DNA of 64,000 nucleotides, taken from Leisingera daeponensis (GTDB lineage: Bacteria > Pseudomonadota > Alphaproteobacteria > Rhodobacterales > Rhodobacteraceae). The translations under genes and the position numbers were made by a program. The stretch covers positions 1-64,000 of the forward strand of contig NZ_JAHVJA010000002.1 in NCBI RefSeq assembly GCF_019801465.1. The letters are read 5' to 3'. The notes under the pieces were generated by a model that did no database searches, was not told the origin of the DNA, and worked only from the letters and a program-made list of their open reading frames with translations. This document shows, in pieces, positions 56,917 to 62,434 of this stretch (position 1 is its first letter; every line of letters begins with the position of its first letter).

Positions 56917-58863
56917 ATGGCCCAAATCTCTCTCACCTTCCCCGATGGCAATGCACGATCCTATGACGCAGGCGTGACCCCTGCGCAGGTGGCGTCCAGC
57001 ATTTCCACCTCGCTGGCCAAGAAGGCCATCTCCGCCACCGTCAACGACAAGCACTGGGATCTGCAGTGGCCGATCGACGGCGACGCCACCATCGCCATCC
57101 ACACCATGAAGGACGAGGTTCAGGCCAACGAGCTGATCCGCCACGACCTGGCGCACGTGATGGCCCGCGCGGTGCAGGAAATCTGGCCCGACACCAAGGT
57201 CACCATCGGCCCGGTGATCGAAAACGGCTGGTACTACGATTTCGACCGCGCCGAACCCTTCACCCCCGAAGACCTCGGCGCCATCGAGAAAAAGATGAAG
57301 GAAATCATCAACAAGCGGGATGAGGTCCGGACCGAGGTGTGGGAGCGCGACCGCGCGATCCAGCATTACACCGACAACAACGAGCCCTATAAGGTCGAGC
57401 TGATCGAGAGCATCCCCGGCGATGAGCCGCTGCGGATGTATTGGCACGGCGACTGGCAGGACCTCTGCCGCGGTCCGCACCTGCAGCACACCGGCCAGCT
57501 GCCGGGAGACGCCTTCAAGCTGATGTCGATTGCCGGCGCCTACTGGCGCGGCGACAGCTCCCGCGCCATGCTGCAGCGGATCTACGGCGTTGCCTTCACC
57601 GGCAAGGAGAAGCTGAAGGCCCACCTCACCATGCTGGAGGAAGCTGCCAAGCGCGACCACCGCAAGCTGGGCCGCGAGATGGACCTGTTCCACATGCAGG
57701 AAGAGGCACCGGGCCAGATCTTCTGGCACCCGAACGGCTGGAAAATCTACACCCAGTTGCAGGACTATATGCGCCGCCAGCAGGAGCGCGGCGGTTATGT
57801 CGAGGTGAACACCCCGCAGGTCGTGGACCGTAAACTGTGGGAAGCCTCCGGCCACTGGGAAAAGTACCAGGAGAACATGTTCATCGTTGAGGTCGACGAG
57901 GAGCACGCCCGCGAAAAGGCCGTAAACGCGCTGAAGCCGATGAACTGCCCCTGCCACGTGCAGATTTTCAACCAGGGCCTCAAGTCCTACCGCGACCTGC
58001 CGCTGCGCATGGCCGAATTCGGCTCTTGCAACCGTTACGAGCCCTCGGGCGCCCTGCACGGCATCATGAGGGTGCGCGGCTTCACCCAGGACGACGCGCA
58101 TATCTTCTGCGCCGAAGACCAGATCGAGGCTGAAACCAAAAAGTTCATCGACTTCCTGTCGGTGATCTACAAGGACCTGGGCTTCGAGAAATTCTCGGTC
58201 AAGTTCTCCGACCGGCCGGAGAAGCGTTCCGGCTCGGATGAGGTCTGGGACAAGTCAGAGGCCGCACTGAAGGCCGCGACAGAGGCGGCAGGCTGCGCCT
58301 ATGAGCTGAACCCCGGCGAAGGCGCCTTCTACGGGCCCAAGCTGGAGTTCGTGCTGACCGACGCCATCGGCCGCGATTGGCAGTGCGGCACCCTGCAGGT
58401 GGACTTCGTGCTGCCCGAACGCCTGGATGCCACCTACATCGGCGCGGATGGCGCCAAGCACCGCCCGGTCATGCTGCACCGCGCGACGCTGGGCTCCTTC
58501 GAGCGCTTCATCGGCATCCTGATCGAGGAGCACGCGGGCAAGCTGCCGTTCTGGCTGGCGCCGCGCCAGGTCGTGGTCGCCTCGATCACCTCCGACGCGG
58601 ATGACTACGTGATGGAGGTCGTCGCCGAACTGAAGAAGGCAGGCGTGCGCGCCGAGGCCGACATCCGCAACGAGAAGATCAACTACAAGGTCCGCGAGCA
58701 TTCGGTGGGCAAGGTTCCGGTCATACTCGCCGTCGGCCACCGCGAGGTCGAGGAACGCACCGTCTCCGTCCGCCGTCTTGGCGAAAAGCAGACCAAGGTG
58801 GAAAGCCTCGAAAATGTTACAAAGGCGCTGGCGGTGGAAGCCACCCCGCCGGACCTTCTGTAA
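56917..58863 (+). CDS. thrS: Threonyl-tRNA synthetase
   Basis: A 648-residue class II synthetase. It has an N-terminal TGS domain ([20 protein letters not shown]), an editing domain with [20 protein letters not shown] near 70, a catalytic core with motif 2 ([20 protein letters not shown]), [10 protein letters not shown] (zinc Cys near 345) and motif 3 ([20 protein letters not shown]), and a C-terminal anticodon-binding domain. The ATG at 56917 follows GAGGAGC. The 278-nt leader holds a CACATATGTG palindrome at 56746-56755 but no recognised riboswitch. Confidence 0.97.
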
Positions 58864-58888
58864 CAATCCGCCCCGAAAACAGCATCAG

Positions 58889-58914
58889 CGGCCCCCATTC
58901 GGGGGCCGTTTTGT
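58889..58914 (+). terminator. Terminator of thrS
   Basis: CGGCCCCC (58889-58896) pairs with GGGGGCCG (58901-58908) around ATTC, followed by TTTTGTTT. It is 26 nt after the stop. Confidence 0.92.
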
Positions 58915-59084
58915 TTCATGAACTGGTTAGACTCCATTATTTCAGGGCTTTGCGCAGCTTTCCGCTCTCACATGCACTGACGCGGGCGTGAGACACGGCC
59001 TCGTGACTTAATTTCCCGAAAACCTCGGGTTAGTGTTTTCCTGTCAACACGACACCGCACGTTTAACCGAAAGGAATTCACGAG

Positions 59085-59390
59085 ATGTCGACCACCGCAA
59101 AATCCCTGGCCGTTGCCAGCGCCGTTGCTGCCGCTCTGACCGCTGCTTCGACCATCCCTGCTGCCGCTGCAACCAAGGAAAAATGCTACGGCGTGTCGCT
59201 GGCCGGCCAGAACGATTGCGCCGCTGGCCCCGGCACCACCTGCGCAGGCACCTCGACCGTCGATTACCAGGGCAACGCCTGGACCCTGGTGGACGCAGGC
59301 AGCTGCGAAGGCCTGGAACTGCCGGCCATGGCCGACGGCACCGAGCGCAAGGGCTCGCTGGAGCCGCTGGAACGCGACCTGCCTGCATAA
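59085..59390 (+). CDS. bufA: Bufferin-type precursor peptide (DUF2282, BufA1-like)
   Basis: A 101-residue DUF2282 protein: a long Ala-rich signal peptide (residues 1 to about 29, cleavage near AAA-TKEK) and a short mature part with exactly four Cys, C34 (KEKCYGV), C45 (NDCAA), C53 (TTCAG) and C74 (GSCEG). This matches the bufferin 1 precursors, whose Cys are modified by a DUF692 enzyme to thiooxazoles so that the exported peptide binds copper. The next genes are that enzyme and its partners. An AAAGGAA ribosome site precedes the ATG. Precursor status is inferred from family and context. Confidence 0.85.
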
Positions 59391-59406
59391 GAACGGCTTG
59401 AATTCA

Positions 59407-59437
59407 GGGGCGGGAGTGCGAGTTCCCGCCCCTTTTG
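59407..59437 (+). terminator. Attenuator-like hairpin between bufA and bufB
   Basis: GGGGCGGGA (59407-59415) pairs perfectly with TCCCGCCCC (59424-59432), followed by TTTT. It lies 16 nt after the bufA stop and 23 nt before the bufB start. It should end most transcripts after the precursor and let a minority read into the modification genes. Confidence 0.8.
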
Positions 59438-59459
59438 CACCCGGACCACAGGACCCGCC

Positions 59460-60314
59460 ATGCTTGACACCGCTGCACATAACAGGCTGCCGGCCGCCCC
59501 CGGCGTCGGCTACAAGCCGCAGCACTTTGCCCAGATCACTGCAGATCCGGGCCGCGTCAAATGGCTGGAAATCCATGCGGAAAACTACATGGGCGACGGC
59601 GGGCGGCCGCTTGCGCAGCTGCGCCACCTGTCTGAGCGCTTTGCGATATCGGTGCACGGCGTCGGCCTCTCCATCGGCGGAGAGGACCCGCTTGATGCAG
59701 ACCACCTTGCCCGGCTCAAACATCTGGTGGGATGGCTGAACCCCGCCAGCTTCTCCGAGCATCTGGCCTGGTCCACCCACGACAGCCATTTCTATAACGA
59801 CCTGCTGCCGCTGCCTTACACGGTCGCCAGCCTGCAGCGGATCTGCGATCATATTGACGAACTGCAGGACACCATCGGCCGCCGGATGCTGCTGGAAAAC
59901 CCCTCCAGCTATCTCGTCTTTGCAGAGAGCACCTGGTCCGAGCCGGAGTTCCTGGCAGAAATCTCCCGCCGCACCGGCTGCGGCCTGCTGCTGGACGTGA
60001 ACAACGTCTTTGTCTCCGCCACCAACCTCGATTTCTCGCCGCAGGGCTACATCGACGCCTTCCCGCTGGACAAGGTCGGCGAAGTCCACCTTGGCGGCCA
60101 TGACGAGGATGAGGACGACCACGGCCATCCGCTGCTGATCGACAGCCACGGGCGCGCTGTCGTGGACCCGGTCTGGGCGCTCTTGGACTATACGCTTGCC
60201 AAATCCGGCTCCAGGCCGGTGCTGATAGAATGGGACAACGACGTGCCGGACTGGCCGGTGCTGGAGGCCGAGGCCGCCCGCGCCGCAACCGCGCTGGAGC
60301 GCATTCCGGCATGA
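59460..60314 (+). CDS. bufB: DUF692 multinuclear iron oxidative enzyme (MNIO), BufB-like
   Basis: A 284-residue TIM-barrel DUF692 enzyme. Family blocks in order are GVGYKPQHF (15-23), WLEIHAENYMGDGG (about 39), SVHGVGLSIGG (about 64), FSEHLAWSTHDSHFYNDLLP (about 98), LLENPSSYLVF (about 144), GLLLDVNNVFVSATN (about 176), GEVHLGGHDED (about 208) and IEWDNDVPDWPVLEAEA near the end. His, Glu, Asp and Asn in these blocks bind a two- or three-iron centre. MNIO enzymes oxidise peptide Cys. It overlaps the next gene by 4 nt. Confidence 0.92.
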   Translation: MLDTAAHNRLPAAPGVGYKPQHFAQITADPGRVKWLEIHAENYMGDGGRPLAQLRHLSERFAISVHGVGLSIGGEDPLDADHLARLKHLVGWLNPASFSEHLAWSTHDSHFYNDLLPLPYTVASLQRICDHIDELQDTIGRRMLLENPSSYLVFAESTWSEPEFLAEISRRTGCGLLLDVNNVFVSATNLDFSPQGYIDAFPLDKVGEVHLGGHDEDEDDHGHPLLIDSHGRAVVDPVWALLDYTLAKSGSRPVLIEWDNDVPDWPVLEAEAARAATALERIPA

Positions 60315-61066
60315 GCGTGAAACAGGCAGAGTTCACCCGCGCCATGATGGATGCGGGCCAGCCGGTGCCGGACGGCCTGATCGACCACCAGGCCCGGCCC
60401 GCCGGACGCCGCTTCAGCGTCTACCGCAATAACGTCGCCGTTTCCCTGACCGAGGCCATGCACAGCGCCTTCCCGGTGATCGCCAAGCTTCTGGGCAAGC
60501 AGAACATGGACGGGCTGGCCGGCATCTATCTGCGCCGGCACCCGCCCTCCTCGCCGCTGATGATGTTCTACGGCGAACAATTCCCCGCGTTCTTGGAAGG
60601 CATGGAGCAGCTCAGGCACCTGGGCTACCTGGGCGATGTGGCACGGCTGGAGCTGGCCCTGCGCCGCGCCTACCACGCAGCGGATGCAGACCCTATCGCA
60701 CCGGAGGCGCTTGGCGCGCTGCCGCCGGACCAGCTGATGTGCACCCGCCTGGCGCTGGCGCCCGCCGTGCAGGTGCTGCGCTCGCCCTGGCCCGTTTACG
60801 CCATCTGGCGGTACAATACTGAAGACGGTGCGCCCAGGCCCCCGGCGGTGTCCCAGGATGTGCTGGTCACCCGCCTTGAATTCGACCCCATTCCCCAGGT
60901 CTTGCCGAGCGCGGGCGCCGATTGGATCCGCGCTCTGATGGCGGGCGCCACCATTGGCGAAGCCCTGGAACAGGCCGCCGCCGCAGACGAAACTTTCGAC
61001 CTGGGCGCTACGCTGGCCCTGCTGCTGCAGAGCGGCGCTATCACCGGATTGGACATCAAAGGGTAA
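60311..61066 (+). CDS. bufC: DUF2063 partner protein, BufC-like
   Basis: A 251-residue DUF2063 protein that normally accompanies DUF692 enzymes and presents the precursor peptide to them. The N-terminal DNA-binding-like helical domain (FTRAMMDAGQPVPDGLIDHQ, then RRFSVYRNNVAVSLTEAMHS, then AFPVIAKLLG) is followed by a winged C-terminal part. The ATGA overlap with bufB couples their translation. The ATG at 60311 is chosen over an upstream in-frame start at 60230 inside bufB. Confidence 0.9.
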   Translation: MSVKQAEFTRAMMDAGQPVPDGLIDHQARPAGRRFSVYRNNVAVSLTEAMHSAFPVIAKLLGKQNMDGLAGIYLRRHPPSSPLMMFYGEQFPAFLEGMEQLRHLGYLGDVARLELALRRAYHAADADPIAPEALGALPPDQLMCTRLALAPAVQVLRSPWPVYAIWRYNTEDGAPRPPAVSQDVLVTRLEFDPIPQVLPSAGADWIRALMAGATIGEALEQAAAADETFDLGATLALLLQSGAITGLDIKG

Positions 61067-61070
61067 ACCC

Positions 61071-61634
61071 ATGCACGCACTTGTCTCCCTTCACGACGCC
61101 GTTTTCCACCAGGTGGAAAGGGCCGGTAACTGGCTGCTTCCGCTGGCGGCGCGCTTCGTCTTTGCCTCCACCCTGCTGCTCTATTTCTGGAATTCCGGCC
61201 TGACCAAGCTGGGCGGCGGCTTCACGGGCCTGTTCAGCCCCTCGATCGGCGCCTACAGCCAGATCTTCCCGAAACAGCTGGAGGCCGCCGGCTATGACGT
61301 CTCCCAGTTCGGCCTGTTCCACAAACTGGTCGTGCTGGCCGGCACCTACGCCGAATTCATTCTGCCGCTGATGATCGTGATCGGCCTACTGACCCGGCTC
61401 GCCGCGCTAGGCATGATCGGCTTTGTCATCGTGCAGTCGCTGACCGACATCTACGGCCACGGCGCCACCGATGACAAAACCCTCGGCGCCCTGTTCGACC
61501 GCTTCCCCGATGCTGTGATCCTCGATCAGCGCTTGTTCTGGGTCTTCCTGCTGGCGGTCCTGGTGGTTAAAGGCGCCGGCGCCCTGTCAGTGGATGCCCT
61601 GCTGCGCCACCGGATCGAGCCCGCAATGGCCTGA
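61071..61634 (+). CDS. DoxX-family membrane protein of the buf operon
   Basis: A 187-residue DoxX-type protein with four or five membrane helices: AARFVFASTLLLYFWNSGLT (25-44), LVVLAGTYAEFILPLMIVIG, AALGMIGFVIVQSLTDIYGH and LFWVFLLAVLVVKGAGALSV. DoxX members are frequent fourth genes of bufferin operons and are thought to serve in redox or quinone-linked steps at the membrane. It starts 4 nt after bufC and ends the operon before a terminator. Confidence 0.88.
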   Translation: MHALVSLHDAVFHQVERAGNWLLPLAARFVFASTLLLYFWNSGLTKLGGGFTGLFSPSIGAYSQIFPKQLEAAGYDVSQFGLFHKLVVLAGTYAEFILPLMIVIGLLTRLAALGMIGFVIVQSLTDIYGHGATDDKTLGALFDRFPDAVILDQRLFWVFLLAVLVVKGAGALSVDALLRHRIEPAMA

Positions 61635-61654
61635 CGCGACGGCCCCGCAAAGGA

Positions 61655-61694
61655 AAAGGCGCCCTGCCCCGGCAGCGGCGCCTTTTGGTTTTGG
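61655..61694. terminator. Bidirectional terminator after the buf operon
   Basis: AAGGCGCC (61657-61664) pairs with GGCGCCTT (61678-61685), with an inner CTGCC/GGCAG stem. TTTTGGTTTT follows on plus and TTTTCC on minus, so it serves both the buf operon and the convergent gene at 61706. Confidence 0.85.
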
Positions 61695-61705
61695 CCGTTC
61701 AAGGA

Positions 61706-62074
61706 TCAGAAATGCGCTTTAGGCTCATCCGGTTTGCCGGCCGCCAGCGCCATCAGCCCGCCCGCGGCTGCAAAGCTGAGCGGAAAAATGGTGAAGACGT
61801 TGAGGCCGAACCCCGCATACATCCCCGCAGCCGACCCCAGCAGCAGGATCCCGCCCCACAAGGCCCGCGCCCGCGCCATCGCACCGCCGGCAATTGCCAA
61901 GAGCGGCGACAGCACCGCCAGCAGCCGCAGTTGTTCAACGTTCTCGACCTGCTCCGCCAGCCCTTCGACTTCGCCGAAATGCTCCACCGCGGCGGTGTAG
62001 CCATAGCCGAAGAACCCTACCACCATGCCGAAAACACCGGCGATGATCCCCAGAACAAGGGCTGCATTGCGCAT
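61706..62074 (-). CDS. Four-helix hypothetical membrane protein
   Basis: A 122-residue inner-membrane protein with about four hydrophobic segments (AALVLGIIAGVFGMVVGFFG, then LAVLSPLLAIAGGAMA, then LWGGILLLGSAAGMYAGFG, then FPLSFAAAGGLMALAAG). An acidic loop (EHFGEVEGLAEQVENVEQ) lies between the first and second segments. It resembles short DUF4064-like proteins, but I am not sure. It is 42 nt downstream of the ArsC-like gene on the same strand, probably one transcript. Confidence 0.72.
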   Translation of the reverse strand: MRNAALVLGIIAGVFGMVVGFFGYGYTAAVEHFGEVEGLAEQVENVEQLRLLAVLSPLLAIAGGAMARARALWGGILLLGSAAGMYAGFGLNVFTIFPLSFAAAGGLMALAAGKPDEPKAHF

Positions 62075-62116
62075 TATCCGTCTCCCAAAATCTGCGGTAA
62101 CGACATATGCGCCGCC

Positions 62117-62434
62117 TCAGGCTGCGCCAAGGGCCGACTTCGTGTTCTGATCCCACCCCAGGAATAATTCCCCGTCACGGTCGATGAGCGGCCGCTTCAT
62201 CAGCGCAGGATGCGCACGCAGCAGCTGCAGCGGCTCGCCAGCGCGCTCCGCCTCGCTCAAGCCCCGCCAGGTGGTGGAGCGGGTATTGACCAGCTTGTCT
62301 CCGAATTGCGCATGCGCGGCCTCCAGCAGGCCGTCCGGCATGCCGTCCGCGCGGATATCGACCAGAACCGAATCCTGAAGCTGCTTCAATGCCTTGCGGC
62401 AGGTATCGCAGTTCTTGAGCCCGTAGATTTTCAT
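62117..62434 (-). CDS. ArsC/Spx-family thioredoxin-fold protein
   Basis: A 105-residue ArsC/Spx-like protein. C9-x2-C12 (NCDTCRKAL) sits at the redox site, and the conserved RPLIDRDGELFLGWD near 80 supplies the Arg typical of the family. The YffB-like branch has no proven arsenate reductase activity, and no other ars genes are nearby, so I do not call it ArsC. It is divergent from the cold-shock gene across 190 nt. Confidence 0.87.
   Translation of the reverse strand: MKIYGLKNCDTCRKALKQLQDSVLVDIRADGMPDGLLEAAHAQFGDKLVNTRSTTWRGLSEAERAGEPLQLLRAHPALMKRPLIDRDGELFLGWDQNTKSALGAA

Follow-up and report, generated by a model that had tools for sequence, protein, structure and literature searches.

How is a bufferin operon controlled in a genome that holds no match to the regulator described for such operons? 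The question is raised by four genes, bufA, bufB, bufC and doxX, in the DNA of Leisingera daeponensis (order Rhodobacterales; assembly GCF_019801465.1), where they lie within the first 64,000 nucleotides (nt) of contig NZ_JAHVJA010000002.1, the whole stretch analysed here and termed the window. In the passages covered of the literature, which is the scope of every citation below, the control described for bufferins is that by sigma-F and NrsF; in this genome there was no NrsF match, and no GTAAC-N17-CGAA was found within 250 nt upstream of bufA. Judged from its sequence, the locus is very probably a bufferin 1 (Buf1/DUF2282) operon and otherwise an ordinary copy of a known system; its interest lies in control. 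What looks new is a conserved control site before the operon and a recurring RNA hairpin after bufA, the two less ordinary parts of the locus, both of which were missed in an initial annotation made from the DNA letters (coordinates in Table 1).

The upstream site, a tandem box, was found by expectation-maximisation in 102 dereplicated upstream regions of the order, which returned a 30-bp block lying ~105 nt before bufA in the genus of the window; 87 of these regions score ≥ 10 for the block, the same sequences having trained the motif. For a broader count we used 141 order entries (loci L062–L201 and the window), of which L088, L092 and L180 gave no upstream region, leaving 138. The box is present with ≤ 3 mismatches in 128 of them, compared with 0.2 expected from mononucleotide shuffles, and with ≤ 1 mismatch in 110. 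In a wider set of 48 regions there were five matches (L238, L243, L244, L251 and L253), and because all five belong to genomes of the same family, the count outside the family is 0 of 43. Scanning of 37 whole genomes, with up to 2 mismatches allowed, revealed in each of the 21 genus genomes exactly one box with 0–1 mismatch, 195–196 nt before the DUF2282 match, whilst the other 28 matches in these genomes all carried 2 mismatches and compare with 22 for a reversed-pattern control. In G022, a family member outside the genus, two sites carry 1 mismatch, and one of the two lies at bufA. A regulon search of the genome of the window gave no second copy of the box besides the same site read backwards.

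Across the genomes compared, loci tend to have either the box or the sigma-F/NrsF system known from Caulobacter. Buf1 clusters can include genes for a sigma factor and for NrsF (PMC12452194), and the sigma-F site has been given as GTAACC-N16-CGAA (PMC3511200). We compared 67 order genomes for which a locus as well as an NrsF result was available, a non-random set with loci taken by DUF2282 score or picked by hand; the NrsF-positive G026 was left out as it had no accepted start codon, giving 66. NrsF exceeded the cut-off in 22 of these, with at most seven candidates scored per genome. The tandem box was found in one of the 22 NrsF-positive genomes vs 41 of the 44 NrsF-negative ones (Fisher P = 5e-13), and a relaxed sigma-F site in 17 of the 22 vs none of the 44 (P = 1e-11), P-values that overstate independence as the genomes are related. 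Seventeen of the NrsF-negative genomes come from loci outside the motif training, and 15 of these have the box. The sole genome with both box and NrsF is G122, where NrsF lies ~52 kb from bufA. The strict sigma-F pattern is present in 15 of the 48 wider-set regions, the five family members not among them, and in four of the 138 order regions. Box and NrsF are thus near-exclusive.

Downstream of the box there is a −10-like element. Of 76 dereplicated loci with the box, 59 have a TANNNT sequence at an offset of 22–26 nt, compared with 2, 3 and 2 when three control windows are read instead, and box and −10 element therefore look like parts of one promoter. A scan with the sigma-70 consensus gave no promoter at the TAGTGT element of the window.

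The second unusual feature lies in the 69 nt between bufA and bufB. The hairpin of the window is the best local fold there (−22.2 kcal/mol), below that of all 60 shuffles. In order to place it, we collected 141 bufA–bufB gaps, without removing duplicates, from the window, named records and genome loci; of these, 139 measure ≥ 25 nt, and the two short ones (L109 and L119) both follow two tandem bufA genes. In each of the 139, a stretch of 40 nt reaches a folding energy of ≤ −15 kcal/mol (mean −23.5, vs −14.4 when shuffled), and 89 fold below all 60 dinucleotide shuffles (64 of 103 after dereplication and exclusion of gaps over 160 nt). The stems hold roughly the same place, with a sequence that differs between genera. 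In a wider sample of 56 loci, four had no BufB match, in two BufA was not upstream and 50 had a gap; 17 of these 50 gaps were < 20 nt, and of the longer gaps, 28 lie outside the family, 12 of which folded below all 40 shuffles. The hairpin is therefore general in Rhodobacterales and present in part of other groups.

These observations lead us to a tentative proposal, possible though with chances somewhat below even, that the Rhodobacterales bufferin operon has been rewired from sigma-F/NrsF to a dedicated single-target regulator at the tandem CGTGA box, with the hairpin setting a high ratio of precursor to enzyme; this regulator would act as a metal sensor not described before. Transcription would start from the TANNNT −10 promoter behind the box, where a putative activator would take the place of sigma-F, an action for which the odds seem roughly even. 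The hairpin would allow partial read-through, or shield the bufA segment from decay, so as to yield much precursor and little enzyme, and as a stoichiometry element it is in our judgement about equally likely to be right or wrong. In the window there are ~27 nt between stem and bufB, which leaves little room for a second promoter, and read-through into bufB is therefore probably needed.

Several points weigh against this reading of the operon and its control. No regulator gene for the tandem box was found. The whole bufA–bufB gap of the window folds unexceptionally (z −0.98; 29 of 200 shuffles fold at least as well). With outer A-T and G-T pairs stripped, T makes up 57, 49, 42 and 52 % of the four positions after the stem vs 19 % overall; this enrichment is partly an artefact of trimming and duplicates, as without trimming and after dereplication the four figures become 35, 32, 32 and 34 % vs 16, 35, 17 and 17 % in shuffled gaps, a modest excess. 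At most one T follows in the next 7 nt in 37 of the 139 hairpins, and a terminator scan requiring 5 T in 8 found four sites vs 2.0 expected, the hairpin not among them. Finally, the structure model of BufA was poor (predicted local distance difference test, pLDDT, 62) and was set aside. As the T enrichment shrinks in the untrimmed, dereplicated set, the terminator part of the rewiring proposal is weakened.

A strict terminator reading of the hairpin was considered separately and set aside in view of this smaller enrichment and of the T content of the first 7 nt, which under the same trimming averages 2.6 after the bufA–bufB hairpin, 1.9 after doxX and 3.2 after thrS. This leaves partial termination and stabilization as two possible actions of the hairpin.

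Other explanations deserve weighing alongside the rewired control proposed above. The upstream block might be a promoter part, read by an alternative sigma factor distinct from sigma-F, and not a regulator site, a reading that draws on the T after GTGAN, near-invariant at 72 of the 76 dereplicated box loci, and on the almost fixed distance to TANNNT, but which we find rather doubtful, as the conserved block contains two repeat units and at 27–30 bp exceeds a −35 element in length, and as there is a single close copy per genome. For the hairpin, a translational switch can be envisaged like the stem-loop between cutF and cutO of Rhodobacter capsulatus, a species of the same order, Rhodobacterales: copper on nascent BufA, or a pause at its RDLPA end, would open the RNA for bufB translation. 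The layout (exported Cys protein, stem-loop, enzyme gene) is indeed shared, RD-x-P is present in 139 of 143 precursor tails and the hairpin starts within ~25 nt of the bufA stop in many loci; such a switch is nevertheless unlikely, because the hairpin of the window leaves the likely ribosome site of bufB, near 59450, uncovered, and because outside the family there are hairpins without RDLP tails (L206, L234, L246 and L252) and RDLP-like tails with gaps too short for a hairpin (L224 and L228). A link between the RDLPA tail and the hairpin found no support outside the family.

A further alternative concerns not the control elements but the stimulus, in that the operon might serve another metal, or oxidative or sulphur stress, and not copper. 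In Caulobacter, chromium and cadmium elicit a response of sigma-F and its targets (PMC3511200), and other metals as well as stress roles of DoxX have been raised for bufferins (PMC12452194). On the other side, that same work reports copper binding for Buf1 members, and CCNA_03362–03366 of Caulobacter are listed as copper-induced (PMC8224329); we regard a role away from copper as very unlikely.

Table 1. Bufferin locus of the window and its control elements, in positions of the window
Feature	Position	Strand	Details
Tandem box	58980–59006	+	ACGN4YGTGA-N3-ACGN4YGTGA; putative regulator site upstream of bufA; 0 mismatches in the window
−10-like element	59031–59036	+	TAGTGT (TANNNT); 24 nt after the tandem box
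bufA	59085–59390	+	101 amino acids (aa); DUF2282 (bufferin 1) precursor; Pfam PF10048, E 2.2e-23, 82.5 bits vs cut-off 22.4
Intercistronic hairpin	59406–59433	+	GC-rich; 11-bp stem including an outer A-U pair; T run 59433–59436
bufB	59460–60314	+	284 aa; MNIO (DUF692) maturase; Pfam PF05114, E 7.3e-101; NCBIfam NF050167 MNIO_BufB, 369.8 bits vs cut-off 310
bufC	60311–61066	+	251 aa; DUF2063 + RRE-like partner; Pfam PF09836, E 3.2e-23, residues 5–95
doxX	61071–61634	+	187 aa from the ATG at 61071; DoxX-family membrane protein; Pfam PF07681, E 8.9e-8

The gene set itself conforms to the bufferin 1 type. The four genes and positions given in the initial annotation agree with the open reading frames (ORFs) and the DNA, all on the forward strand, as do the 4-nt overlap of bufB with bufC and the 4-nt gap between bufC and doxX; for bufC and doxX, the first start in the ORF list lies further upstream, and the ATGs that fit the operon were chosen. 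The description of the genes as tightly packed holds for bufB, bufC and doxX, but not for bufA and bufB, which are separated by the hairpin-containing gap. All four Pfam matches (DUF2282, MNIO, DUF2063 and DoxX) exceed curated cut-offs, so that the profile search proposed in that annotation places the first three families as it had predicted, and an MNIO of the BufB kind sits directly after the precursor, in the order A-B-C. The bufferin-type bufABC–doxX assignment is thereby upheld by profiles, synteny and the fold of the partner protein. Scores for related types fell short: the precursor reached 19.5 bits with NCBIfam BufA2 (the Buf2 class, with 6/12 Cys; cut-off 60), and for the oxazolin-type HvfABC system the enzyme reached 226.2 against the HvfB cut-off of 360 and the partner 46.9 against the HvfC cut-off of 142, whilst the doxX product scored 25.1 against the HvfX cut-off of 80. 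An Rfam search over 58800–61800 gave a single match, far under the gathering score. Downstream, at 61706–62434 on the reverse strand, the window holds two neighbours, a gene whose small product matches DUF4064 below the threshold and a member of the ArsC family; an ArsC match likewise lies beside the operon on the opposite strand in many of 60 relatives.

The precursor has just four Cys in its mature part (34, 45, 53 and 74), as initially annotated, with the spacing C-x10-C-x7-C-x20-C. Their arrangement, which had been likened to bufferin 1, fits the Pfam family and the relatives, the comparison being with these and not with the Caulobacter sequence: the 10-7-20 spacing recurs in 142 of 143 Rhodobacterales precursor frames (loci L062–L201, duplicates such as L122 and L074 included), and the four Cys are among the 20 invariant columns of 38 aligned precursors. 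By eye, the N terminus resembles a signal peptide, with a hydrophobic stretch and an A-x-A-like end, and is kept in the alignment. The acidic C-terminal tail pointed out earlier is present, but is not peculiar to this member. Because nearly every Rhodobacterales precursor examined carries one, it is the norm, and it was discarded as a special feature: in all 143 frames the tail is net acidic (more acidic than basic residues), and RD(L/I/M/V/Q)P and G(S/A)L each occur in 139. Precursors from outside the family frequently have a shorter tail, and many retain a GSL motif. No match to BufA was found among the sequences of solved structures up to E 10. As side observations, tandem bufA genes precede a single bufB in L085, L109 and L119, and in four of the 56 wider loci (L208, L215, L226 and L249) a DUF2282 gene has no BufB match in the available stretch, for some of which short stretches or contig ends may be responsible.

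In published Buf1 precursors, the central two of four conserved Cys are modified, with thiooxazole as the heterocycle, the first and last form a disulphide, and copper is bound in the periplasm (PMC12452194). From such characterized relatives we infer the modification sites, heterocycle, export and copper binding of the present BufA. It would be made with an export signal and, in the cytoplasm, be presented by BufC, through its DUF2063 and RRE-like domains, to the iron oxidase BufB, which would turn the central Cys (45 and 53) into 5-thiooxazoles; with its outer Cys (34 and 74) joined as a disulphide, the peptide would then be exported through Sec and bind copper in the periplasm. DoxX may have an accessory role.

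Among solved structures, BufB matches by sequence the MNIO 3bww (E 8.2e-44) and the MNIO chain of 8hci (E 3.4e-18), and MbnB more weakly. For BufC, a sequence search of solved structures gave one chance-level match (E 0.058), and a confident model built from 32 sequences (pLDDT 93) had as its best Foldseek hits in the PDB the TglHI partner chain (8hci_A, E 3e-6; 8hi7_A, E 5.7e-6) and NGO1945 (3dee, E 3.7e-4); a separate RRE (5v1u) followed at E 2.8, and MbnC and the RRE TbiB1 had insignificant E-values. As 3DEE has been named as such an MNIO partner (PMC12668002), the modelled full-length fold, like those of 3DEE and TglI, supports a partner role for BufC. Within the genus, the terminal gene doxX appears to have been replaced in situ: among genus mates L062, L064, L065 and L080 it falls into three divergent types (75 % link), with a lowest pairwise identity of 49 %, unlike BufA, BufB and BufC, whose pairwise identities within the genus are at least 89, 83 and 76 %, respectively.

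The bufferin 1 locus is near-core in the genus and order. The genome of the window has one DUF2282 and one MNIO match, and DUF2282 is present in all 20 of the other genus genomes listed; with the genome of the window counted, it occurs in 291 of 390 genomes sampled from the order, 100 of 289 from the class and 63 of 299 from the phylum. Sixty relatives were examined at length (20 of the genus and 40 hand-picked for spread, a non-random set, DUF2282-positive by choice). BufA, BufB and BufC are present in all of them, a DoxX match in 58 (the others being L092, and L099, in which the stretch ends inside bufC; weak, at 21–23 bits, in L093, L094 and L117) and a ThrS match upstream in 49. As such, this looks like a vertically kept locus rather than a mobile oddity. 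One record, L153 (JAHVJD010000002.1), titled as the actinobacterium Nocardioides marinus DP1N28-1, carries the operon with a BufB 85 % identical; this title is likely to be an error.

Numerous genomes in a large order keep this operon in the absence of NrsF, under a different and unique operator, which makes the missing regulator a concrete target; should the rewired control proposed here be true, it would be findable through its unique site. The recurring hairpin between precursor and maturase offers a testable explanation for how a copper buffer that acts stoichiometrically comes to outnumber an enzyme that acts catalytically.

Bufferins rank with the most widespread of the peptides that MNIOs modify, and they have a conserved bufABC order, with DoxX in the Buf1 core (PMC12452194). 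Box and hairpin are absent from the literature passages covered, the founding bufferin report aside, and the word 'hairpin' does not appear in the main text of PMC12452194; a partial literature search found nothing on DUF2282 in the Roseobacter group. In layout, the nearest parallel to the hairpin is cutFOG (PMC9973294), which likewise has a gene for an exported Cys protein, a stem-loop and an enzyme gene, and concerns copper. There the stem-loop masks the ribosome site of the gene that follows, as the hairpin of the window does not, and the likeness is drawn from gene layout alone, the proteins having no known relation. A ribosomally synthesized and post-translationally modified peptide cluster of Phaeobacter inhibens, of a related Roseobacter-group genus, has a DUF692 core enzyme and is, by inference, the orthologous locus; in the passages of that report it figures simply as a peptide family predicted by antiSMASH, and 'copper' does not appear in its main text (PMC11595833). 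Bufferin peptides have been grouped with 5-thiooxazole-bearing captophorins, among which fontiphorin, oxazolin and gonophorin, with EGKCG/Lys-Cys precursors, would share with the present locus an MNIO and a DUF2063 partner that install this heterocycle (PMC12668002). Here, by contrast, the precursor is of the DUF2282 family with no repeat peptide, and BufB scores over the BufB cut-off and under that for HvfB. The founding bufferin study, that of Leprevost et al. in PNAS (2024), reportedly dealt with the bufferin 1 operon of Caulobacter vibrioides. That operon (CCNA_03363–03366) shares with the present one the order DUF2282–MNIO–DUF2063–DoxX, four Cys with the family spacing and apparently a signal peptide on the precursor, whereas no NrsF match was found in the genome of the window and no strict sigma-F site within 250 nt of its bufA, and the operon has instead the tandem CGTGA box and the long acidic tail common across Rhodobacterales.

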